Shown: one piece after another, positions 42,136 through 59,470 of the stretch
Layout: every line of letters begins with the position of its first letter
Position numbering within the stretch: the stretch's first letter is position 1
Assembly: GCF_017352155.2 (NCBI RefSeq)
Contig: NZ_CP071462.1
Coordinates: 2,418,001 to 2,482,000, forward strand
Source: Haloterrigena alkaliphila
Lineage (GTDB): Archaea; Halobacteriota; Halobacteria; Halobacteriales; Natrialbaceae
DNA length: 64,000 nucleotides
Direction: 5' to 3'
Position numbers and translations under genes: made by a program
The notes under the pieces: model-generated
The model's input: the letters and a program-made list of their open reading frames with translations, nothing else
The model's database searches: none
Told to the model about the DNA's origin: nothing

Positions 42136-43872
42136 TCAGTCGTCCGCAGGGGTGTTTCCGCCACGGTTCTTCTCGGCGACGATGTCCGCCGCGGTCTTGT
42201 CGCTGGGCATCGGATCGGGGCTGTGACACTGTCGGACCATCTGTTTGGTCTCGAGCGGTGGTTCGGTGGTCACGAGCGAGACGATGATCGTCACTGCGAA
42301 CACGATCGGCGTCCCGACGAGCGCCGAGCCGATGGCCGGCATCCACGTCGAGATGACGTCGATGCCGAGTCCGCCGTCGATGAGACCGAAGTTCCCCTCG
42401 TTGAACATTGGGATGAACCAGACGATGATCCCGGTCGTCATGCCCGCGAGCGCACCCGGCCGGTTCGTGTTCTCCCACCAGAGCCCGAGGAAGAACATCG
42501 GGAACAGCACGATGGCCGCGAGCGAGAACGCGAACCCGACCAGGGCCGCGATCGGCTGCTGGGGGTTCAGCGCGAAGACGATCGTGAGCAGACCGATCAG
42601 GATGATGCTCAGGCGGCCGACGAGCACCTGCTGGCGCTGCGTCGCGTCTTCGTTGATGATGTTCGCGTAGATGTCGTGGGAGATCGCGGACGAGGCGGCG
42701 ATGAACAGGCCGGCCGTCGTCGCGACCGCCGCGGCGATGCCGCCCGCCGCGACGAAGCCGACGAACCACGCCGGCAGCTCCGCGAGCTGTGCGGCCAGCA
42801 CGACGAGGACGTCGCCGGCGGCGCTGGTCATGCCGGGGTCACCGTACACGGCGCCGATCTGGTCCCCGTACAGTGCCGTGCCGATCGCGGCGAACGCGGG
42901 CGCGCTCAGGTAGAGGAGCGAGATGAAGAACAGCCCCCAGGTGCACGACCAGCGGGCCACGCGCTCGTTCTTGACCGTGTAGAACCTGACCAGCACGTGG
43001 GGCAGTCCGCACGTTCCGAAGACCAGGCTGAAACACGTCGCGACCCACAGGTAGTAGCTGCCGCCCGCGAACGGCTCCGAGAACTCGGCGCCGAGACTGT
43101 CGATCATCATCCCGTACTCGAGCTGGGGCAGGATCGTCGTGTACCCCGCCGACCAGCCGGTTACGACCAGTCCGAGCAGGAACGCGACGATGAGGATGAC
43201 GTACTGCAGGACCATGTTCTTGGTCGCGCCGAGCATCCCCGACAGCGAGAGGTAGGCGACGGTGATGACCATGAAGATCACCATCATCGTCTGGTAAGCG
43301 GATAGCGCACCGCCGGTGACCGCCGACCAGTCGCCGAGGATGTACATCCCGACGAGGCCCATCCCGCGGGCCTGACCGAGCGCGTAGACGAATCCGATCA
43401 GGAACGTGGTGATCGCCGCGAGGGCGCGCGCGGCGTCGGAGTTGAAGCGGTCGCCGACGAAGTCCGGCGCGGTGTACTTCCCGAACCGCCGCATCTGGGC
43501 GGCCATGAAGATCAGCAGGATGAAGTATCCCGTCGTCCAGCCGATCACGTACGCCAGCCCGTAGACGCCCGAGATTGCGACGGTGGCAGCCACGCCGAGG
43601 TAGGTCGCGGCCGACATCCAGTTGGCCCCGATGGCCATCCCGTTCTCGATGTTCCCGATCGACCGGCCGGCGACCCACATGTCGTCGGTGTCGGCGACCT
43701 TGAACATGAAGCCGGCGACGATGAACAACAGCATCATGCCGATGACGATGATCGACGGAACGAGTTTGAAGGAGACGTTGAGTCCCTCCGGGAGCAACCC
43801 TTCGTCCGTCTGCAGCGGCGCCCCGGCCATCGCACCGATCGCGAGGTTCGCCAGCGCCGGCGTGCCGATCAT
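42136..43872 (-). CDS. Sodium:solute symporter family protein (probable acetate/monocarboxylate transporter)
   Basis: A 578-residue SSS-family transporter with about 13 membrane helices. Typical features are the first-helix core with WVAGRSIGNIENGMAIGANWMSAATYLG, GYFILLIFMAAQMRRFGKYTAPDF, and a late GLFIAASSAISHDIYANI. The dedicated small subunit gene overlaps as ATGA upstream, a pattern of the VC_2705/ActP-like subgroup. Location between two acetyl-CoA synthetase genes and a regulator argues for acetate as substrate, by context. Confidence 0.88.
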   Translation of the reverse strand: MIGTPALANLAIGAMAGAPLQTDEGLLPEGLNVSFKLVPSIIVIGMMLLFIVAGFMFKVADTDDMWVAGRSIGNIENGMAIGANWMSAATYLGVAATVAISGVYGLAYVIGWTTGYFILLIFMAAQMRRFGKYTAPDFVGDRFNSDAARALAAITTFLIGFVYALGQARGMGLVGMYILGDWSAVTGGALSAYQTMMVIFMVITVAYLSLSGMLGATKNMVLQYVILIVAFLLGLVVTGWSAGYTTILPQLEYGMMIDSLGAEFSEPFAGGSYYLWVATCFSLVFGTCGLPHVLVRFYTVKNERVARWSCTWGLFFISLLYLSAPAFAAIGTALYGDQIGAVYGDPGMTSAAGDVLVVLAAQLAELPAWFVGFVAAGGIAAAVATTAGLFIAASSAISHDIYANIINEDATQRQQVLVGRLSIILIGLLTIVFALNPQQPIAALVGFAFSLAAIVLFPMFFLGLWWENTNRPGALAGMTTGIIVWFIPMFNEGNFGLIDGGLGIDVISTWMPAIGSALVGTPIVFAVTIIVSLVTTEPPLETKQMVRQCHSPDPMPSDKTAADIVAEKNRGGNTPADD

Positions 43873-44327
43873 TCCTCGACACCTCCGTCAGTCGCGGCCG
43901 CGTCGTCCGGGACGGAGTCGGTGTCGGTCGTCTCCGGTTCGGCGACGCCCTGTTCGATACCGTACTTCTCGTCGATCTGATCTCGCTTGCGCGCGTACCA
44001 GACCGAGAGGATGAGCGCCGCCCCCGGCCCGACGATGGCGAGCAGGAAGTAGTGTAACGGGAAGCCGATCAGCGGCATCTGACTCGTCATCAGGTCGGGT
44101 GCGAGACGCGTCGCCGTGATCGGCGCGAACGTCGTCAGCACCCAGATGCCGAAGCCGATCCAGATGATCCGCAGGTGATCCCGCATGAACGGGGTCGCCG
44201 GCTTCAACAGGTTGATCTCGACGTCCATGTAGTCGATTTGCTGTTCGCGTTCGACGTCGCTCAGTCCGCCGTCGGTCGCGACGTCTCGGGGTTCGTCTCC
44301 CGTATCGTGGTTGGTGTTATCTGCCAT
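43869..44327 (-). CDS. DUF4212-type small subunit of the sodium/solute symporter
   Basis: A 152-residue protein with an acidic N-terminus and two membrane helices (IIWIGFGIWVLTTFAPI and FPLHYFLLAIVGPGAALILS), then VWYARKRDQIDEKYG, the family's conserved end of the second helix. Such proteins always accompany an SSS large subunit, which overlaps it here by ATGA. Function in the complex is unproven. Confidence 0.88.
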   Translation of the reverse strand: MADNTNHDTGDEPRDVATDGGLSDVEREQQIDYMDVEINLLKPATPFMRDHLRIIWIGFGIWVLTTFAPITATRLAPDLMTSQMPLIGFPLHYFLLAIVGPGAALILSVWYARKRDQIDEKYGIEQGVAEPETTDTDSVPDDAAATDGGVEE

Positions 44328-44396: not shown

Positions 44397-46376
<1,980 letters not shown>

Positions 46377-46391
46377 GATACAACAGGGCAA

Positions 46392-46430
46392 TGCACAACT
46401 GCCATAGTAAAGCCGCCATCTAGTTGTGCA
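46392..46430 (-). promoter_or_regulatory. Promoter of acs copy 1: TATA box framed by a 9-bp inverted repeat
   Basis: On the plus strand TGCACAACT (46392-46400) and AGTTGTGCA (46422-46430) are perfect inverted copies 21 bases apart. The minus-strand TATA box (TTTACTATGG, about 46402-46410) sits between them, about 30 bp before the ATG at 46376. A dimeric repressor or activator could cover the core promoter. Centre spacing is about 30 bp, three helical turns. Confidence 0.6.
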
Positions 46431-46648
46431 AAATCGGGCCGCGTACGGGGCGGATAGCTAAGGAATATTGACTGTATTAGGAGAATATAGCCGGTTATAT
46501 CGGCCCGTCGACGCCGGTTCGCGGTCGCGCGACGCGACGCGACGCCTCGAGCGCGGACGACCGCGGCCGTGACCACGCAGGTGCAAGGCCGACGCTCTAG
46601 AGGTTTAGGGTCGGGCCGGTCGCCACGACGGTCGAGCGATCGGCGCCG

Positions 46649-48892
46649 TCAGTCGGTATCGGCGGTGTCGGTCGTTTCCGCCGTCGGATCGTCGAAGAAG
46701 GTCCGCAGGAGTTCGTGTTGGCCCTTCCGCAGGTGGTTGTGCAGCGTCGGCGACGAGATGCCCATCGCGTCGGCGATCTCCTCGGCGGTGCTCTCGCGGG
46801 GCCAGTCGTAGTAGCCGCCGAAGTACGCCGCCCGCAGCGACGCCTCCTGGCGGTCGGTCAGTCGGTCCTCGAGTCCCTCGCGGAACTCCCGGGCGGTCCG
46901 GACGGTCCGCTCGGTCTCGCGTTTCCCGATCAGTTCGGAGTCGGGGAAGACGGCGCGAAGCCCGTCGACGATCGTCCGGATATCGGCGTCGGCGGCGCAC
47001 TCGGCGGTGATCGCCGCGGTCCCGCCCTCGAAGTGCGCCTCGAGGACGGTGGTGCCGTACTCGGTGAGCGTGACGATCGGACAGGCACCGTCGACGACGA
47101 ACTCGACGCGCCACCCCTCCGCGTCGGTCTCGACCAGCCGGTAGTCCTCGATGCCGGCCTCGTCCGCGGCGAGATCGAAGACGTCGGCCGGCGAGGCGTC
47201 CTCGAGGCGTAGGTAGTACAGCTTCGTCGACTCCGAGAGGGGGACGAGCGAGTCGAGTTCGAACCGACAGCCCAGTCGCCGGGAGGCGTCGACGAAGAAG
47301 GAGTCGGTATCGCGACACTCGACGTCGAGTTCGACGATCCGATCGGACAACAGGAGGTTCCGCCGCCGGATCGCGGCGATGGCGTAGCCGACCTGCCGGC
47401 CGATCGTCTCGAGCCAGCGCCGCTCCTCGTCGTCGAACGCCGCGGACGCGTCGGTCGCGACCGCGAGGGCGCCGTAGACCGTGTCCCCGTAGGCCAGCGG
47501 GACGCGCGCGAGGGCGCCGGCCGCGTCGTCCGCGTTACCCCCACCGCCGCTGTCCACGCCGTCGCCATCGACCGCGAGGGGGACGTCCGTCTCGACTACG
47601 ATCGGCGTCTCGTCGGCTGACGCGTCGGTCTCTCCGCCGTCCTCGCGCCAGCCGTCGGGGACCAGTCGCTCGACCGCGTCGGGGTCGATCCCGCTCGCGG
47701 CGCGCCAGTCCCGGCGCTGATTCGCGTGGGTCGCTCGGTCGATCCAGGCGTACTCGTAGGCGCCTCCAGCCGTCAGCGCGGCGCAGGTCTTCGTCTCCAC
47801 TTCCTCGTGGTCGGTCGATTCCAACAGCGCCCGCGTGACCGCTCGGTGGGTCCGGGCGACGGCGTCGCGCCGTTCGAGATCGTGCGTGCGCGCGCGAAGA
47901 TCCTCGAGTTCTTCGTGGGCGGGGGAGACGTCGCGGACGAAGACGGCGAAGCCGCGGTGACGCCCCTGGTCGTCCCGCAGGGGCGAGACGACCTCGGTCG
48001 CCCGGAACTGCGAGCCGTCCTTGTGGACGCGCCACCCCTCGTGCTCGTAGCCCGACTCCTCGAGGGCCGCGGACAGCGTCCGCTCGGGGACGCCGTCGTC
48101 GACGGCCGCGTCGGGGTAGAACGTCGAGACGTGCGTGCCGACGATCTCGCCGGCTCGGTAGCCGAACATCGCGGCCGCGCTCCGGTTCCAGCGCTCGACG
48201 TAGCCGTCCGCGTCCAGCCGCAACAGCGCGTACCGGTCGCTGGCGGCCAGTAACAGGCGGATGACGCTGTCGTCGCCCACGACGGGTCCGTCGCCTCGGT
48301 CGCGGCCGGTGCCGGAGGGCTGCTCGACGGCGTCGAAGGCGTCGACGATCTCGGCGTCGGTGGGTTCGGGCAGGTACGGCTCGAGGGCCTCGAAGCTCCG
48401 CCAGCCGCCGGCGGCCTTGACGACGCGCGGGTTGACGGCGTGGTCGACGAGCGCCCGGCGGGCGAAGTACTGCCGGAGATCGCTCGTGGAGACGTGGGCG
48501 AGCGGCGGTCGATCGAACAGATCGGCGGCCCGGTCGCCCACGTCCGAGACGAGCATCTGGAGGCGCCGCGCCGTGACGGGAAAGATCCGATCGTCGGTCG
48601 TCAGTCCGTTGCTCCGGGCGTACCGCCGCAGTTCGCGTTCCACCCTGGTTGGCAGGTACGCCGTCCGTCCGTCACCGTCGTCGACGACCGGCACGCGGAC
48701 AAGGTAACGGGGCGGCTCGATTCGGACCTGCTCGACGTCGTCGACGGTGAGTTCGGCCAGCTCCGTCGGGCGGAGACCGACGTCGCCACAGAGGCGCACG
48801 ACCAGCGCCTCGCGGTAGGTTTCGGCGGCGTCGAGGAGGAGTTCGTACTCGTCGCGCGCGAGTACCGACGACTCGGTCTCCTCGAGACTCAT
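46649..48892 (-). CDS. Bat-type regulator: degenerate tyrosine-recombinase-like domain, PAS, GAF, Bat and HTH
   Basis: A 747-residue protein. Residues 1-190 resemble the catalytic domain of tyrosine recombinases (VGLRPTELAELTVDD ... SDLRQYFARRAL ... GGWRSFEALEPYLP): the two arginines and terminal tyrosine survive, but the first motif histidine is Ser (STSDLR) and the GH is GW, so it should not recombine DNA. A PAS domain (about 220-335), a GAF domain (about 345-525), a bacterio-opsin activator domain and a C-terminal HTH (TAEEIADAMGISSPTLHNHL) follow. Lying between two acs genes it probably controls acetate metabolism. The start ATG is at 48892; TATA box near 48920. Confidence 0.85.
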   Translation of the reverse strand: MSLEETESSVLARDEYELLLDAAETYREALVVRLCGDVGLRPTELAELTVDDVEQVRIEPPRYLVRVPVVDDGDGRTAYLPTRVERELRRYARSNGLTTDDRIFPVTARRLQMLVSDVGDRAADLFDRPPLAHVSTSDLRQYFARRALVDHAVNPRVVKAAGGWRSFEALEPYLPEPTDAEIVDAFDAVEQPSGTGRDRGDGPVVGDDSVIRLLLAASDRYALLRLDADGYVERWNRSAAAMFGYRAGEIVGTHVSTFYPDAAVDDGVPERTLSAALEESGYEHEGWRVHKDGSQFRATEVVSPLRDDQGRHRGFAVFVRDVSPAHEELEDLRARTHDLERRDAVARTHRAVTRALLESTDHEEVETKTCAALTAGGAYEYAWIDRATHANQRRDWRAASGIDPDAVERLVPDGWREDGGETDASADETPIVVETDVPLAVDGDGVDSGGGGNADDAAGALARVPLAYGDTVYGALAVATDASAAFDDEERRWLETIGRQVGYAIAAIRRRNLLLSDRIVELDVECRDTDSFFVDASRRLGCRFELDSLVPLSESTKLYYLRLEDASPADVFDLAADEAGIEDYRLVETDAEGWRVEFVVDGACPIVTLTEYGTTVLEAHFEGGTAAITAECAADADIRTIVDGLRAVFPDSELIGKRETERTVRTAREFREGLEDRLTDRQEASLRAAYFGGYYDWPRESTAEEIADAMGISSPTLHNHLRKGQHELLRTFFDDPTAETTDTADTD

Positions 48893-49031: not shown

Positions 49032-51008
49032 CTACTCCTCGTCGATCTCGGCCTGAATCTCGCCGACGATCTCCGGGTTCCGCAGCGCCGAGGTGTCCCC
49101 GAGTTCCTCGTCGTTCGCGACGTCCTCGAGGAGGCGGCGCATGATCTTGCCCGAGCGGGTCTTCGGGAGTTCTGGCGTGAAGACGACCGCTTCCGGGCGG
49201 GCCATCGACCCGATCGCACTCTCGACGTTGTCGAGGATCGCCTCCCGAACGGCGCCGTCGTCGTCGTAGCCGCCCTCGGTGCTGACGTAGGCGTGGATAT
49301 CGGTCCCGGTTCCCTCGCTCGAGCGGCCGACGACGGCGGCCTCGGCGACGCCGGGAACGTCGGTGATCGCGCTCTCGATCTCCATCGTGCTCAGGCGGCG
49401 CCCGGAGACGTTGATCACGTCGTCGATCCGGCCGAGGACGGTGACGTAGCCGTCCTCGTCGACGCGCGCGGCGTCGCCGCTGAAGTAGCGCCACTCGTCG
49501 CGGCCGGGGTCGGAGAATCGCTCCCAGTACTCCGTCCGGAAGCGCTCGTCGCCGTCGTACAGCGTCCGGGCCATCCCCGGCCACGGCCGGTCGATGGTGA
49601 GGTAGCCCGAGTCCCCGGGATCGACGGGCTCGCCGGCGGCGTCGACGACGTCGACGTCGATGCCGGGAAGCCCCGGTCCCGCGGCGCCGGGTTTCATCTC
49701 GTCGATGGCCGGCAGCGTCGAGATCGTCACGGCGCCCGTCTCGGTCTGCCACCAGGTGTCGACGATGGGACACTCTTCGTTGCCGATGTGCTCGTAGTAC
49801 CAGTTCCACGGCCGCGGGCTGATCGGTTCGCCGACGCTTCCGAGCAATCGTAGCGAGGCCAGGTCGTGGTGAGCGGGATAGTCTTCCCCCCACTTCATGA
49901 ACGCGCGAATCGCCGTCGGCGCGGTGTAGAAGACGTCGACCGCGTTCCGTTCGACGATCTCCCAGAGCCGATCCCGGTCGGGATAGTCGGGGGTGCCCTC
50001 GTACATGAGGCTGGTCGTTCCGAGTGCGAGCGGCCCGTAGACGATGTAGGAGTGGCCGGTGATCCAGCCGATGTCGGCCGCACACCAGTAGGTGTCCTCC
50101 GGTTTGACGTCCAGCACGGCGTGGGTCGTCCACGCGACGTGCGAGAGGTAGCCGCCGGTGGTGTGGACGACGCCCTTCGGTTCGCCGGTCGTCCCGGAGG
50201 TGTACATCAGGAACAGCATGTCCTCGGCGTCCCGCGAGACCGGGTCGACGGTCTCGCTGGCGAACTCGTCGCGGAGGTCGTGGTAGTCGTACTCCTCGTC
50301 GCCGAGGACGTGCGGGAGGTCCGCGCCCAGCCGATCCACGACGACCGTTCGCACGTCGTGCTCGAGTTTGAGCAGGGCGTTGTCGGCCTTGCTCTTCTGG
50401 TTGAAGGCGTCGCCGCGGCGGTAGTAGCCGTCGCAGGTCAACAGGTACTCGCTGTCGGCGGCGTCCATCCGCGTCGCGAGCGCGTCGGCCGAGAGGCCGG
50501 CGAAGACCACGCTGTGGGGCGCTCCGATCCGGGCACACGCCAGCATCGTGATCGGCAGTTCCGGGATCATCGGGAGGTAGATCGTCACCACGTCGTCCTC
50601 TTCGACGCCCAGGTCCCGCAGCGCCGCGGCCACCTCGTTGACCTCGACGTACAGATCGCGATAGGTGTACGTCCGGCGCTCGCCCCGCTTGCCCTCCCAG
50701 CGGATCGCGGCGTGGTTCTTCCGCCCCGCCTCGAGGTGGCGGTCGAGGCAGTTGTACGAGGCGTTGAGTTCGCCGCCGGAGAACCACTCGTAGAAGGGGG
50801 CGTTTTCGTCCTCGAGGACGGTCTCGTACGGCTCCGCCCACGAGAGCAGGTCGGCCGCCCGCTCCCAGCAGTCGGGCCACTCTGCCTCGAACTCGTCGTA
50901 GATCCCCGGGTCCGTGACGTTCGCCTGCTCGACGAACGACGCCGGCGGGCTGCGGGGCGACCCGGTGAGGACGGGATGCTCCCGTCCCCACCCGTTCCGA
51001 TCGTCCAT
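49032..51008 (-). CDS. acs: Acetyl-CoA synthetase (AMP-forming), copy 2
   Basis: A 658-residue paralog of copy 1 with the same motifs: YTSGTTGEPKGVVHTTGGYL, DTWWQTETGAVT and the lysine motif KTRSGKIMRRLL. Sequence identity to copy 1 is high through the body; termini differ. Two differently regulated acetyl-CoA synthetases flank the Bat regulator, so they may serve different acetate levels or acids such as propionate. Weak TATA (CGCTTATTC, near 51041). Confidence 0.92.
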   Translation of the reverse strand: MDDRNGWGREHPVLTGSPRSPPASFVEQANVTDPGIYDEFEAEWPDCWERAADLLSWAEPYETVLEDENAPFYEWFSGGELNASYNCLDRHLEAGRKNHAAIRWEGKRGERRTYTYRDLYVEVNEVAAALRDLGVEEDDVVTIYLPMIPELPITMLACARIGAPHSVVFAGLSADALATRMDAADSEYLLTCDGYYRRGDAFNQKSKADNALLKLEHDVRTVVVDRLGADLPHVLGDEEYDYHDLRDEFASETVDPVSRDAEDMLFLMYTSGTTGEPKGVVHTTGGYLSHVAWTTHAVLDVKPEDTYWCAADIGWITGHSYIVYGPLALGTTSLMYEGTPDYPDRDRLWEIVERNAVDVFYTAPTAIRAFMKWGEDYPAHHDLASLRLLGSVGEPISPRPWNWYYEHIGNEECPIVDTWWQTETGAVTISTLPAIDEMKPGAAGPGLPGIDVDVVDAAGEPVDPGDSGYLTIDRPWPGMARTLYDGDERFRTEYWERFSDPGRDEWRYFSGDAARVDEDGYVTVLGRIDDVINVSGRRLSTMEIESAITDVPGVAEAAVVGRSSEGTGTDIHAYVSTEGGYDDDGAVREAILDNVESAIGSMARPEAVVFTPELPKTRSGKIMRRLLEDVANDEELGDTSALRNPEIVGEIQAEIDEE

Positions 51009-54771: not shown

Positions 54772-55824
54772 TCAGTGTCGTCTGGGCATGGTGGAGTGTC
54801 GCGTACTGGCTCGCATATCCGCGCGTTCCGACGGCGGGGGCGCCATCGTCGAGTGGCGCGTTCCGTCGCCGCCGCCGGTCCTCTTCTCGCTCGAGCCGAG
54901 ATCGGTGTCGAGCGGGCCGTCGTCCTCGTCTTCCTCGGCGTCGTCGGCCCTGTTGTTTTCGTCGTCATCGGTTTCGTCTCCGCCGACGGCGCTGGCACTG
55001 CGGTTCTGCAGTCGATCCTGGAGACCCTCGAGGTCGTCGCCGACGTCGGTCAACGAGGACTCGACCGCCGATCGAAGCCGGTCGCCGATGTCGCCGCCGT
55101 CATCTGTCGACGTCTCGTCGCCGTCCGCCTCGCCGTCCTCGCTCTCGGCCGATTCGTCGTCCTCACTCTCGAGGACCCCGTCGAGCCCCCCGGCCTCGCT
55201 GACCGTCTCGGCGGCCGACTCGATCGCCTCTCGAGCGCCGCCCTCGCTCTCGGATTCGTCACTTTCGTCGGCCTCGTCGGCGTCTTCGGCTTCAGCGCCG
55301 CCGTCCCCGTCGGCGCTGTCGCCCTCCTCGCTCGAGCCGAGGACGCTCTCGAGCAGTCCGTCCTCGGCTTCGTCGTCGCTCCCGCCGCCGGCGTCGCTCT
55401 CGCCGTCCGCGTCTCCCTCGCCCTCCTCGGCGTCCGAATCGCTCGACGCACCCTCGCGCTCGCCGATCGACGCCCGCAACTCGTCGACGGCACCCTCGAG
55501 TGTCCCCTCGTCGTCGCCGTCGCCGTCGGCGAGATTCGAGAGGTGCAACAGCCGCTGGAGGTCCGCGACCTGCTCCGGATCGCCCTGCGCGATCGCCGCC
55601 GGAATCGAGTTCGGTTCGCTGCCGTCCGGTAGCGTATCAAGGCCGACGGCTGCGAGCAGCTGGTTCGGCTCCGCGGACTCGAGGAGGTCGCTGGCCTCCT
55701 CGGCGGTCTCGAGCAGATCCGTGCCGTCGCCGTTCTCGCCGCCGAGCATCGATCCGCTCGAGGTCTCGGCCGCGTTCAGTATCTCGGTCACCCGGTCGTG
55801 AAGGTCCTGGCTGTCCTGGCTCAT
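54772..55824 (-). CDS. Acidic cluster protein D: Ser/Asp/Glu-rich protein of unknown function
   Basis: A 350-residue protein of very low pI, last of four tandem acidic genes. Residues 1-110 look folded and helical (QDLHDRVTEILNAAE ... DPEQVADLQRLLHLSNL). A motif of the form A-x-E-A-I-E-S-A-A-E-T-V-S-E-A-G-G-L-D-G-V-L-E-S occurs near residue 210 and matches two repeats in the next protein. The rest is low-complexity Asp/Glu/Ser. The C-terminal 30 residues turn basic (RASTRHSTMPRRH). No signal peptide or membrane helix. Function unknown. Confidence 0.75.
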   Translation of the reverse strand: MSQDSQDLHDRVTEILNAAETSSGSMLGGENGDGTDLLETAEEASDLLESAEPNQLLAAVGLDTLPDGSEPNSIPAAIAQGDPEQVADLQRLLHLSNLADGDGDDEGTLEGAVDELRASIGEREGASSDSDAEEGEGDADGESDAGGGSDDEAEDGLLESVLGSSEEGDSADGDGGAEAEDADEADESDESESEGGAREAIESAAETVSEAGGLDGVLESEDDESAESEDGEADGDETSTDDGGDIGDRLRSAVESSLTDVGDDLEGLQDRLQNRSASAVGGDETDDDENNRADDAEEDEDDGPLDTDLGSSEKRTGGGDGTRHSTMAPPPSERADMRASTRHSTMPRRH

Positions 55825-55904
55825 GGCTCCCCTCGGCGTCCGCACCGCGGTTCGCGGTTCGCCGCCCGCCGCCGTCGGAGTCGCACTCGAGGGGCGGACG
55901 GGCG

Positions 55905-56885
55905 CTATTCGGCTTCGGCCTCCGCTTCCGACTCGTCCTCGCCTTCGTCGTCCGTCACCGCCGCGATGATCTCGTCGGTCATCTCCTCGCGACTGAGGTT
56001 CGCCTTCACGCCGACGTCCTTGGCCACCGACTGCAGGTCCTGGTAGGACATCACGCCGAGGAAGTCCTCGAGGGTGTCTTTGCGGAGGTCTTCGATGTCT
56101 TCGACCGACGGCTCCGAGTCGTCGCCCGCTTCGTCCTCGACCGTCTCCTCCTCGTCGCCTTCGCCTTCCTGCTCCCCTTCGGACTCCTCGTCCGTTGCGT
56201 CGTCTTCGTCGCCTTCTGCTTCCGGCTCTGCCTCGTCTTCTTCACCTCCGTCTTCCGCGTCGTCCTCGTCGCCTTCACCTTCCGACTCGGTTTCCTCCCC
56301 GTCGTCTTCCGCGTCGTCCTCGCTGCCTTCGACTTCCGACTCGGATTCCTCCCCGTCGTCTTCCGCGTCGTCCTCGTCGCTCTCGAGGAGCTCGTCGAGT
56401 CCGCTCTCCTCGCCGATGCTCTCGACGACGTCCTCGATGGTCTCCTGCGTGCCGCCCTCGCTTTCGGCCTCGTCGGTCTCGTCGTCGCTCTCGGAGTCGC
56501 TCTCTCCGCTCTCGAGGAGGCCCTCGAGGCCGCTCCCCTCGGAGACGCTCTCGGCCAGCGACTGGACCGATTCCTTCGCGTCGTTTTCCTCGACCGACTC
56601 GCGGATGGCCTCGCGGATCGACGCCGTGAGGTCCGACCGTATCTCTTTGCGGTCTTTCCCCTCCTCGATGCCTTCGGCGATCGATTCGTGGATGCCGCGA
56701 CCGATCGCGCCGCCCAGTTCTCGGCCGACGCGTTCGCCGAACTCGCGGCCGACCGCCGCACCGACTTCGCCGCCGTCGATGCTGTCCTCGATGTCGCCGT
56801 CGCCGAGCAGTTCGGCCACGTCGAGCTGGTCGCTGACCTCCTGGGCCACCATCGCTTTCAGCCCGCTCTCAGTCACGGCGCTCAC
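55905..56885 (-). CDS. Acidic cluster protein C: glycine-zipper N-terminus and SAP/Rho-N-like C-terminus
   Basis: A 326-residue protein. Residues 35-80 have GxxxG spacing (GGEVGAAVGREFGERVGREL), a glycine-zipper-like helix able to oligomerise or touch membranes. Two copies of a motif ending in GLEGLLES/GLDELLES lie at about 105-160. A centre of Glu/Asp repeats (about 165-265) follows. Residues 265-320 (DLRKDTLEDFLGVMSYQDLQ ... SREEMTDEIIAAV) resemble a SAP or Rho-N helical unit that can bind nucleic acid. No signal peptide. Function unknown. Confidence 0.75.
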   Translation of the reverse strand: MSAVTESGLKAMVAQEVSDQLDVAELLGDGDIEDSIDGGEVGAAVGREFGERVGRELGGAIGRGIHESIAEGIEEGKDRKEIRSDLTASIREAIRESVEENDAKESVQSLAESVSEGSGLEGLLESGESDSESDDETDEAESEGGTQETIEDVVESIGEESGLDELLESDEDDAEDDGEESESEVEGSEDDAEDDGEETESEGEGDEDDAEDGGEEDEAEPEAEGDEDDATDEESEGEQEGEGDEEETVEDEAGDDSEPSVEDIEDLRKDTLEDFLGVMSYQDLQSVAKDVGVKANLSREEMTDEIIAAVTDDEGEDESEAEAEAE

Positions 56886-56936
56886 CTCGAGGCTGGATCG
56901 GCGAGTCGGTGTTGGGAATCTGGCTCCGTTTCATGG

Positions 56937-57521
56937 TCAGTCCTCCTCGGATTCGGCCGCTTCGGCCTCTTCGTCCTCGCCGTCGGCGTCGGCTTCGTCG
57001 CCGCCCCCGTCGTCCGCCGCGGCGTCGTCCTCGCTTTCGTCGGCCTGTTCGTCGTCACCGCCTTCGTCGTCGGACGCATCGGACTCCTCGTCTTCCCCGT
57101 CGTCCGCGGATTCGTCGTCCCCTTCCTCGTCGTCGGATTCGGTCTCGGTGTCCTCCTCCGCCGACTCGTCGGCGTCTTCGGAGGCGTCCTCCTCGTCCTC
57201 GGCTTCCTCCTGAACTTCGTCTTCTTCGGCATCTTCCTCGAGGTCCTCGCCCTCGGCCTCCTCCTCGAGTTCGTCCGCGCCGCCGAGCAGTTCGTCGACG
57301 ACCATGTCGCCGATCGTCCGGCCGATGGATTCGCCGATCTTCCGGCCGACGAGCGCGCCGATCTGGGCGCCCAGCGCCTCGCCGAGGGGCTTGTCCTCGT
57401 CGATCTCGTCTTCCCACTGGGTACCCTCGATCAGCTCGTTGATGTCGATGTTCTCGGTGATCTTCCCGTAGTCGATTCGCTGTGCCATTGATTCGGACTC
57501 GGATTCGGATTCTCCACTCAT
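56937..57521 (-). CDS. Acidic cluster protein B: glycine-zipper protein with acidic tail
   Basis: A 194-residue protein. The N-terminal 80 residues hold a folded region (YGKITENIDINELIEG) and a GxxxG zipper (LGAQIGALVGRKIGESIGRT) resembling that of protein C. The last 110 residues are almost only Glu, Asp, Ala and Ser. It starts three bases after the preceding gene stops, so it is translationally linked. No signal peptide. Unknown function. Confidence 0.75.
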   Translation of the reverse strand: MSGESESESESMAQRIDYGKITENIDINELIEGTQWEDEIDEDKPLGEALGAQIGALVGRKIGESIGRTIGDMVVDELLGGADELEEEAEGEDLEEDAEEDEVQEEAEDEEDASEDADESAEEDTETESDDEEGDDESADDGEDEESDASDDEGGDDEQADESEDDAAADDGGGDEADADGEDEEAEAAESEED

Positions 57522-57523
57522 CG

Positions 57524-59470
57524 TTAGGCTGCCTCCGCTGTCGCGTCGGATTGGTCACTGGCCCCTTCCTGCTCCTCGTCGGGTTCTAGCTGCTCAATTA
57601 ACTGCTCGAGCACCTCGCTGACGACCGTCGCCACGAAGTCCTCGACCGGCAAGCTCGGTACGAGTCCGGCGAGACCCTCCTTCGCCCGGTCGCTGGCTGC
57701 GGAGATCGGACTCGGCGATTCGGTCGCTTCCTCGTCCTCCTCCGCTTCGTCCGGCGTCTCTTCGCCTTCTTCTTCTTCTCCCTCCTCCGCTTCGTCCGGT
57801 GTCTCTTCGCCTTCTTCTTCTTCTCCCTCCTCCGCTTCGTCCGGTGTCTCTTCGCCTTCTCCTTCTCCCTCCTCCGCTTCGTCCGGTGTCTCTTCGCCTT
57901 CTCCTTCTCCCTCCGCTTCGTCCGGCGCTTCCTCTTCTTCGGCTTCGGCCGCTTCTTCCTCGTCCGGCGCTTCCTCCTCGTCTCCGCTGCCGAAGAGCCC
58001 GCGGATCCACTCGACCGGCTTGCCGAGCATTCCCTTCACCCAGCTGACGGCCGAGGAGATCCGGCCACCGGAGTCCGCTTCTTCCTCTTCTTCGCCCTCT
58101 TCGGCTTCGGCCTCCTCCTCGCCTTCGGCTTCTTCCTCGCCGCCGAGTCCCAGCATCCCCAGCAGCTTGTCGAACAGTTCCTTCGGCTTGCTCAGCAACC
58201 CGCTGAGGAACTCCTTGGGCTTCTCGAGGAGTCCGCTGAGCATCTCTTTCGCCTTGCCGGGGGCCTTCTTGAGAAGCTCGATCGGCTTGCTCAGGAGCTC
58301 TTTCGCCTTGCCGGGGACTTTCTTGAGAAGCTCGACCGGCTTGCTCAGGAGCTCTTTCGCCTTGTCGATCATTGCACCGGGGCCGTCCAGTAGCCCCGTC
58401 ACGGCGGACAACAGGTTCCCGAGGAGGTTGTTTCCGCCCGGACGGGCCGACACGTCGAGCTGGAGCGGGTTCAGGTTGACCTCGAGGCCGAGCAGATCGA
58501 GGAAGAGGCCGTCGAGATCGAGATGGAGGACGCCGGACGCGTCGTCGCCCTCGTAGACCTTTTCGGCGTCCTCGGCGTGTCCTTCCTCGCGCTTGTCCTC
58601 GGTGAGGTCACCGGTATCGTCTCCGACGTCCTGTTCCTCTTCTTCAGCTTCCTCTTCTTCAGCCTCTTCGTCTTCGGCTTCTTCCTCTTCGTCTTCGGCT
58701 TCTTCCTCTTCGTCCTCGGCTTCCTCCTCTTCGTCCTCGGCTTCCTCCTCTTCAGCCTCTTCGTCCTCAGCTTCCTCCTCTTCAGCCTCTTCGTCCTCAG
58801 CTTCCTCCTCTTCAGCCTCTTCGTCCTCAGCTTCCTCCTCTTCAGCCTCTTCGTCTTCGGCTTCCTCTTCCTCTGCCTCTTCGTCTTCGGCTTCCTCTTC
58901 CTCTGCCTCTTCGTCTTCGGCTTCCTCTTCCTCTGCCTCTTCGTCTTCGGCTTCCTCTTCCTCTGCCTCTTCGTCTTCGGCTTCCTCTTCCTCTGCCTCT
59001 TCGTCTTCGGCTTCCTCTTCCTCTGCCTCTTCGTCTTCGGCTTCCTCTTCCTCTGCCTCTTCGTCTTCGGCTTCCTCTTCCTCTGCCTCTTCGTCTTCGG
59101 CTTCCTCTTCCTCTGCCTCTTCGTCTTCGGCTTCCTCTTCTTCAGCCTCTTCGTCTTCGGCCTCCTCTTCTTCGGCTTCCTCTTCCTCTGCCTCTTCGTC
59201 TTCGGCTTCCTCTTCCTCCGCCTCTTCGTCCTCTTCTTCCGCTTCTTCGGCGTCAGCACCTTCCGTGTCGGCTGCCGACGCTTCGTCGGCATCACCACTC
59301 GAGTCCTCGTCGTCGCTCTCCTCAGCCATCTCTGCCTGGCCGCCATCGGTCATAATCCTGCGGCCCGATCGCTCCGCGTGCTCACCGTCGTGACGATCGC
59401 TCGAGGCGTCCGCGACCTCCACGGGATCGGAACTCTCCTCGGAACCATCATCTTCTAAACCGTTTGTCAT
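57524..59470 (-). CDS. Acidic cluster protein A: giant repeat-rich protein with LLGNLL core and amphipathic lysine repeats
   Basis: A 648-residue protein, first of the cluster. Residues about 75-285 are nearly pure Glu/Ala/Asp, encoded by a 30-bp tandem repeat. Residues about 310-365 contain DLDGLFLDLLGLEVNLNPL and NNLLGNLLSAVTGLLDG, a motif I know from secreted hypothetical proteins of bacteria and archaea; here there is no signal peptide. Residues about 370-440 are repeated amphipathic units (KAKELLSKPVELLKK). A second acidic repeat (GEETPDEAE) precedes a C-terminal hydrophobic helix (VEDFVATVVSEVLEQLIEQL). The start may be downstream: the only TATA match overlaps the ATG at 59470, and an ATG at 59353 is a good alternative. 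Confidence 0.75.
   Translation of the reverse strand: MTNGLEDDGSEESSDPVEVADASSDRHDGEHAERSGRRIMTDGGQAEMAEESDDEDSSGDADEASAADTEGADAEEAEEEDEEAEEEEAEDEEAEEEEAEEEEAEDEEAEEEEAEDEEAEEEEAEDEEAEEEEAEDEEAEEEEAEDEEAEEEEAEDEEAEEEEAEDEEAEEEEAEDEEAEEEEAEDEEAEEEEAEDEEAEEEEAEDEEAEEEEAEDEEAEEEEAEDEEAEEEEAEDEEAEEEEAEDEEEEAEDEEEEAEDEEEEAEDEEAEEEEAEEEEQDVGDDTGDLTEDKREEGHAEDAEKVYEGDDASGVLHLDLDGLFLDLLGLEVNLNPLQLDVSARPGGNNLLGNLLSAVTGLLDGPGAMIDKAKELLSKPVELLKKVPGKAKELLSKPIELLKKAPGKAKEMLSGLLEKPKEFLSGLLSKPKELFDKLLGMLGLGGEEEAEGEEEAEAEEGEEEEEADSGGRISSAVSWVKGMLGKPVEWIRGLFGSGDEEEAPDEEEAAEAEEEEAPDEAEGEGEGEETPDEAEEGEGEGEETPDEAEEGEEEEGEETPDEAEEGEEEEGEETPDEAEEDEEATESPSPISAASDRAKEGLAGLVPSLPVEDFVATVVSEVLEQLIEQLEPDEEQEGASDQSDATAEAA
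57745..57935 (-). repeat. 45/42-bp tandem repeat in protein A
   Basis: Four to five copies of a unit coding for about 15 or 14 residues (GEETPDEAEEGEEEE types). The first copies have 45 bp and the later ones 42 bp, differing by one Glu codon. It lies in the acidic C-terminal part of protein A. Confidence 0.75.
58215..58365 (-). repeat. 54-bp repeat coding amphipathic lysine helices
   Basis: Nearly identical 54-base units encode KAKELLSKPVELLKKVPG and KAKELLSKPIELLKKAPG; a third, more divergent unit (KAKEMLSGLLEKPKEFL) follows. The positive faces contrast with the acidic rest of the protein. Confidence 0.75.
58640..59255 (-). repeat. 30-bp minisatellite coding the Glu/Ala-rich stretch of protein A
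   Basis: About 20 tandem copies of a 30-base unit. Nine copies at 58861-59130 are identical to each other (plus-strand start CTTCCTCTTCCTCTGCCTCT), and three to four at 58741-58860 form a second identical group (CTTCCTCCTCTTCAGCCTCT). The two groups show local homogenisation. The frame is kept: every unit gives 10 residues. Confidence 0.9.

Follow-up and report, generated by a model that had tools for sequence, protein, structure and literature searches.

A conserved element beside the TATA box of a haloarchaeal acetyl-CoA synthetase gene and its association with an integrase-fused Bat-type protein

In the 64,000 nucleotides of Haloterrigena alkaliphila DNA analysed here (contig NZ_CP071462.1; hereafter the window), the TATA box of one of two acetyl-CoA synthetase genes, acs copy 1, lies between the halves of a perfect dyad. 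The first-pass annotation had treated this dyad as a possible regulatory unit. This raises the question of whether both halves matter to the promoter and which protein might read them. On the same strand, acs copy 1 is preceded upstream by the gene for Int-Bat, a protein combining integrase-like and Bat-type domains, and further upstream by acs copy 2. The features of the locus, all on the minus strand, are as follows.

42136..44327: DUF4212 protein (43869-44327) and sodium:solute symporter (42136-43872), downstream of acs copy 1; no element upstream
44397..46376: acs copy 1, AMP-forming acetyl-CoA synthetase, 659 aa; start codon 46376-46374
46377..46392: start-proximal bases ATTG (-16 to -13) and TGTAYC (-6 to -1), from column conservation
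46392..46400: AGTTGTGCA, the downstream dyad half, with weak conservation (GTTSTNCA as family consensus); perhaps a weak second site
46404..46411: TATA box TTTACTAT of acs copy 1; TTTA (-35 to -32) invariant among in-register promoters
46419..46433: TTTTGCACAACTAGA, the element conserved as TTTTGYACANCTAGA (column conservation), spanning -57 to -43 relative to the acs copy 1 ATG; proposed upstream activating site
46422..46430: upstream half of the dyad, inside the conserved 15-bp element
46649..48892: Int-Bat, 747 aa, with integrase-like, PAS, GAF, BAT and HTH_10 domains; proposed regulator
49032..51008: acs copy 2; promoter without the element

Elsewhere in the window (54772-59470), we observed a run of very acidic, low-complexity proteins, one of them with long EEEEAEDEEA-type repeats.

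The dyad around the acs copy 1 TATA box

On the forward strand, the dyad consists of TGCACAACT (46392-46400) and AGTTGTGCA (46422-46430), separated by 21 bases. Read along the minus strand, the promoter runs from TTTTGCACAACTAGA (46433-46419) through TTTACTAT (46411-46404) and AGTTGTGCA (46400-46392) to the ATG (46376-46374), which confirms the annotated arrangement of a perfect 9-bp dyad with the TATA box between its halves. The half-site centres had been placed 30 bp apart on one DNA face; at 10.5 bp per turn this distance amounts to about 2.9 helical turns and thus to roughly one face. An exact search found the dyad only once in the window and once in the 4.27-Mb genome. In line with the annotation, the DNA preceding acs copy 2, the Bat gene and the DUF4212/symporter pair showed no copy of the half-site.

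The chance expectation of zero for this dyad applies to its exact sequence only. Perfect 9-bp dyads with a gap of 3-30 numbered 48 in the window (overlapping dyads tallied separately), compared with a mean of 30.7 (range 14-55) in first-order random sequence, and about one per random window has a gap of exactly 21. A 272-bp segment of this composition contained at least one perfect 9-bp dyad in 6.5% of draws. Since perfect 9-bp dyads with a gap of 3-30 are this common by chance, the dyad by itself is unremarkable and therefore needs other support; what stands out is how well its upstream half is conserved. Seen in a single genome, a striking dyad can mislead; comparing genomes tells the conserved half from the drifting one.

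Conservation of the two dyad halves

The upstream half forms the core of a 15-bp element, TTTTGYACANCTAGA, located 7-8 nt 5' of the acs copy 1 TATA box. Across 83 distinct in-register promoters from 20 genera of the family (Natrialbaceae), column conservation revealed TTTTGYACANCTAGA, separated from TTTACTAT by seven bases of loose conservation. Within the element, the core TAG is near-invariant in family promoters, and CTAGA and TTTT are the most conserved bases of the in-register promoters. Upstream half and TATA box, combined into a strict composite, were found in 47 of 125 family genomes, in all sequences read at 54 nt before the start codon; for three of the 47 sites the automatic start search halted at an earlier ATG, and the aligned promoter shows the same place. 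A looser composite occurred in 91/125 genomes with exactly one site in each, compared with 2/125 for its reversed-pattern control. The patterns used in the comparisons were devised after the promoters had been seen. Within the H. alkaliphila genome, 13 one-mismatch copies of TGCACAACTAG were found at other sites, and on inspection by reading none showed an acs-type element followed by TTTA at 7-9 nt; all but one of the 13, L126, are covered by stop-to-stop frames longer than 100 codons (counted mechanically, without gene calling). The bases ATTG (-16 to -13) and TGTAYC (-6 to -1) are likewise well conserved family-wide as a possible initiator or leaderless-start signal, and this region is probably the transcription and translation start of what would be a leaderless mRNA.

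The downstream half behaves differently. In the 83 promoters, position -22 is always T and position -16 is A in 93%, with the remaining positions mixed. A dimeric repressor (or activator) that spans the TATA box by occupying the two 9-bp halves and so blocks TBP/TFB would nevertheless agree with several observations. Among the 97 promoters that share one register (the seven in which the element is spaced differently were set aside), the mirror match was 9/9 in two, the own genome (G000) and G093, the latter with a matched two-sided change (TGTACAACT and AGTTGTACA); it was 8/9 in two (G012, G088), 7/9 in 16, and 2 to 6 of 9 in 77. The family mean of 4.82 of 9 was the highest among the 36 registers listed, and column-order permutations reached it in 10 of 20000 cases, or 17 of 20000 without the window's genus. 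However, once any register was allowed, the permutations reached the mean in 1101 and 1701 of 20000 (5.5 to 8.5%). Pairing the halves within each genome scored hardly better than pairing them across genera (4.80 vs 4.74; genus permutation 272/5000), and outside the family no mirrored copy was found, the match at the same register being 2.21 of 9 (19 promoters). The most conserved bases, CTAGA and TTTT, are not mirrored, and -22, the mirror position of the variable base -48, remains T regardless of the base at -48. No clear compensatory change between the halves was seen in the 97 in-register promoters, and the family promoters do not show both halves conserved with such change, the pattern of a two-half-site operator. 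The 8-bp dyad, with a gap of 17-27 allowed, was detected in only one of 125 family genomes.

In sum, conservation, slid registers, permutations and cross-pairing left only a weak residual signal for a symmetric repressor operator, seen as inverted similarity at the dyad register in several genera, and we consider such an operator unlikely. Judged from the alignments, the downstream half would be incidental or a weak second site, at most a weak, lineage-specific second contact and not an operator half. The annotation's reading of the dyad as a regulatory unit is not supported, as the upstream half belongs to the 15-bp element and the downstream half drifts. Its further proposal of regulation specific to the acs copy 1 promoter holds for the regulatory character and the promoter specificity, with one composite site per positive genome (91/125), and is not supported for the dyad as the unit.

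Alternatively, the element could extend the core promoter and be recognised by a specific TFB/TBP pair instead of Int-Bat. BRE contacts are expected directly 5' of the TATA box, where the bases of in-register family promoters are poorly conserved. The element also follows one particular neighbouring gene, as described below. These two points render a core-promoter role quite improbable, even though the spacing between element and TATA box is near-fixed and Halobacterium possesses several TBP and TFB genes (PMC1447603).

Co-occurrence of the element with Int-Bat

Among 128 family acs promoters, drawn from 122 of the 125 genomes (G035 gave no acs match at E 1e-100, and in G116 acs was not among the matches listed), the element was present in 104/104 that have a same-strand BAT/HTH_10 gene upstream and in 0/24 that lack one. 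A further Bat-less promoter (G115), shortened by a contig end and examined separately, also lacks it. In other haloarchaea (41 promoters; the table omits L054, which has neither Bat nor element), the element was found in 19/21 promoters with a Bat match and in 0/20 without, as the variants GTATAGTTAG, GATAGTTAG and CGTATTTAG, spaced from the TATA box much as in the family. Of the two Bat-positive promoters that do not match, L030 has a distant BAT protein 2.7 kb away that has no integrase part, and L032 carries TTAG at a spacing slightly longer than the pattern allowed. Of the 47 loci, the first 30 were covered over 1.5 kb upstream and the remaining 17 over 2.2-2.4 kb; nearly all others were covered over about 3.5 kb.

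Two side observations concern promoters outside the family. In Haloferax elongans (L043:4001-6053), the acs frame ends after about 220 aa in the assembly, yet promoter element and Int-Bat are present. By eye, TTGTGA recurs about 18-20 nt past the start of the TATA box in most of L015, L021, L026, L031, L052 and L053, nearer in L031, and is perhaps the counterpart of ATTG at -16.

Because many of the 104 promoters come from close relatives, Fisher values for the promoter table overstate the association, and a tree-based test is fairer. On a tree of 55 haloarchaeal acs proteins (excluding L043 for its broken frame), the Bat label changes nine times, six of them forced by well supported branches. 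In six independent supported pairs, the element follows the Bat label in 5.8 on average and never the opposite (sign test, median p 0.031). Here the element labels were taken from the promoter table and are identical to the Bat label except for L032; L030 was scored Bat-positive in the table and Bat-negative in the tree test. With nine changes of the Bat label required on the tree and the element changing alongside, the association does not reduce to a single inherited block.

Genomes with two acs copies point in the same direction. Six second copies, picked among those listed, entered the family comparison, and the element occurs only at the Bat-linked copy in each genome read (G016, G026, G027, G048, G099, G103). 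The same was observed in Haladaptatus pallidirubidus (L053 vs L017). In G037 and G083, extra DNA separates Bat from acs, and the element still lies beside the acs TATA box.

Neighbourhood and promoter may still be inherited together without direct contact, with another HTH_10 protein or an unlinked factor binding the element and Int-Bat co-inherited as part of a gene-pair block. The H. alkaliphila genome has 17 BAT/HTH_10 matches (E 1e-8), any of which could bind. However, the Bat label changes nine times on the acs tree and the element follows it, and there is no evident reason why Bat-less acs copies in the same cell should lack it if another factor were responsible. We therefore give this explanation only a small chance. 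By a crude pattern, none of 11 other BAT/HTH_10 loci of this genome has the element nearby, leaving the Int-Bat locus as the only one of the 12 examined.

Int-Bat as a putative activator and known systems

Int-Bat, which resembles light/oxygen sensors, shows the domains of a Bat-type regulator, BAT (PF15915, 154.1 bits) and HTH_10 (PF04967, 64.1 bits), together with PAS and GAF_2 sensor domains, all above cut-off. Its HTH_10 domain is nearly unchanged in 105 family rows, among which the protein of the window appears twice. The recognition-helix residues are common to 20 others; the TAG core of the element is likewise shared beyond the family, so that HTH_10 helix and TAG core are both near-invariant. 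Active tyrosine recombinases carry a catalytic R, the HxxR histidine, a second R, H/W and Y. The integrase-like part of Int-Bat keeps R41, R140 and W164, and the nucleophile-like Y173 is found in 74/74 family rows and in 40% of 20 rows from other haloarchaea. The HxxR histidine position (137) is occupied by S in 74% of the 74 family rows and by R in 80% of the 20 others. By these residues, Int-Bat does not match an active recombinase; with the histidine lost and the tyrosine missing in most rows outside the family, the integrase-like part is probably a structural or DNA-binding remnant.

We observed directly that the element is present, that it keeps a fixed place next to the TATA box, that it is unique and that it occurs together with Int-Bat. 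In our view, the upstream dyad half is likely the core of an upstream activating site (UAS) of acs copy 1, bound and activated by the adjacent Int-Bat on a signal tied to acetate use. Considering sequence and neighbourhood, the neighbouring Int-Bat is probably the switch of the element, and binding by Int-Bat rather than by another HTH_10 protein of the genome is predicted. Int-Bat would bind the element through its HTH_10 domain, right next to the TATA box on its TFB side. Once its PAS/GAF domains receive a signal accompanying acetate use, it would promote assembly of the pre-initiation complex at acs copy 1. Just 5' of the TATA box, the element occupies the position of a UAS; because of this location, an activator touching TFB would suit the site. 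We infer activation, not repression, from this position and by analogy. A more elaborate variant, which we regard as unlikely, takes Int-Bat as a domesticated tyrosine recombinase turned activator, whose HTH_10 domain reads the YTAG core while the integrase-like domain contacts TGYACA and, in some genera, its inverted copy on the far side of the TATA box; a single protein would thereby clamp or bend the DNA around TBP.

Haloarchaea encode many Bat-type (HTH_10) proteins with few known targets. The proposed role would assign the integrase-fused Bat subfamily a predicted DNA site and, throughout the class, one target gene, and thereby offer a directly testable acetate-use switch. In Haloferax mediterranei, transcripts of AMP-forming acs rise on acetate (PMC11784441). 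A search by title and beginning of abstract, with most subscription papers outside its coverage, found no report linking acs to Bat in haloarchaea. The kind of system is thus ordinary, a UAS with a Bat-type regulator, and the pairing is new as far as the literature searched shows.

A close parallel is the bop-type UAS with the consensus ACCcnactagTTnGG. Its letters have only the CTAG core in common with TTTTGYACANCTAGA, and the flanking bases differ. Like the bop UAS, the acs element lies 5' of the promoter and goes with a PAS/GAF/HTH regulator whose gene belongs to the same cluster; unlike it, the target is acs, not bop, crtB1 or brp, and Int-Bat adds an N-terminal integrase-like domain. The UAS 5' of the Bat-activated bop gene is published (PMC1447603 and PMC3184054), and its Bat dependence in the Halobacterium bop promoter was described by Baliga and DasSarma, as cited in PMC1447603. 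DmsR of Halobacterium activates the dms operon with a Bat-like HTH (PMC1447603). DmsR and the proposed Int-Bat would both be Bat-type HTH regulators of metabolic genes, the one directed at anaerobic respiration and the other, as proposed, at acetate activation. Finally, the archaeal tyrosine recombinase family fam30-04 combines Phage_integrase, BAT and HTH_10, in some members with GAF (PMC8371274). Int-Bat shares this domain set and adds PAS; fam30-04 is classed among recombinases by sequence, whereas the integrase-like domain of Int-Bat has lost recombinase residues and its gene tracks a promoter element.
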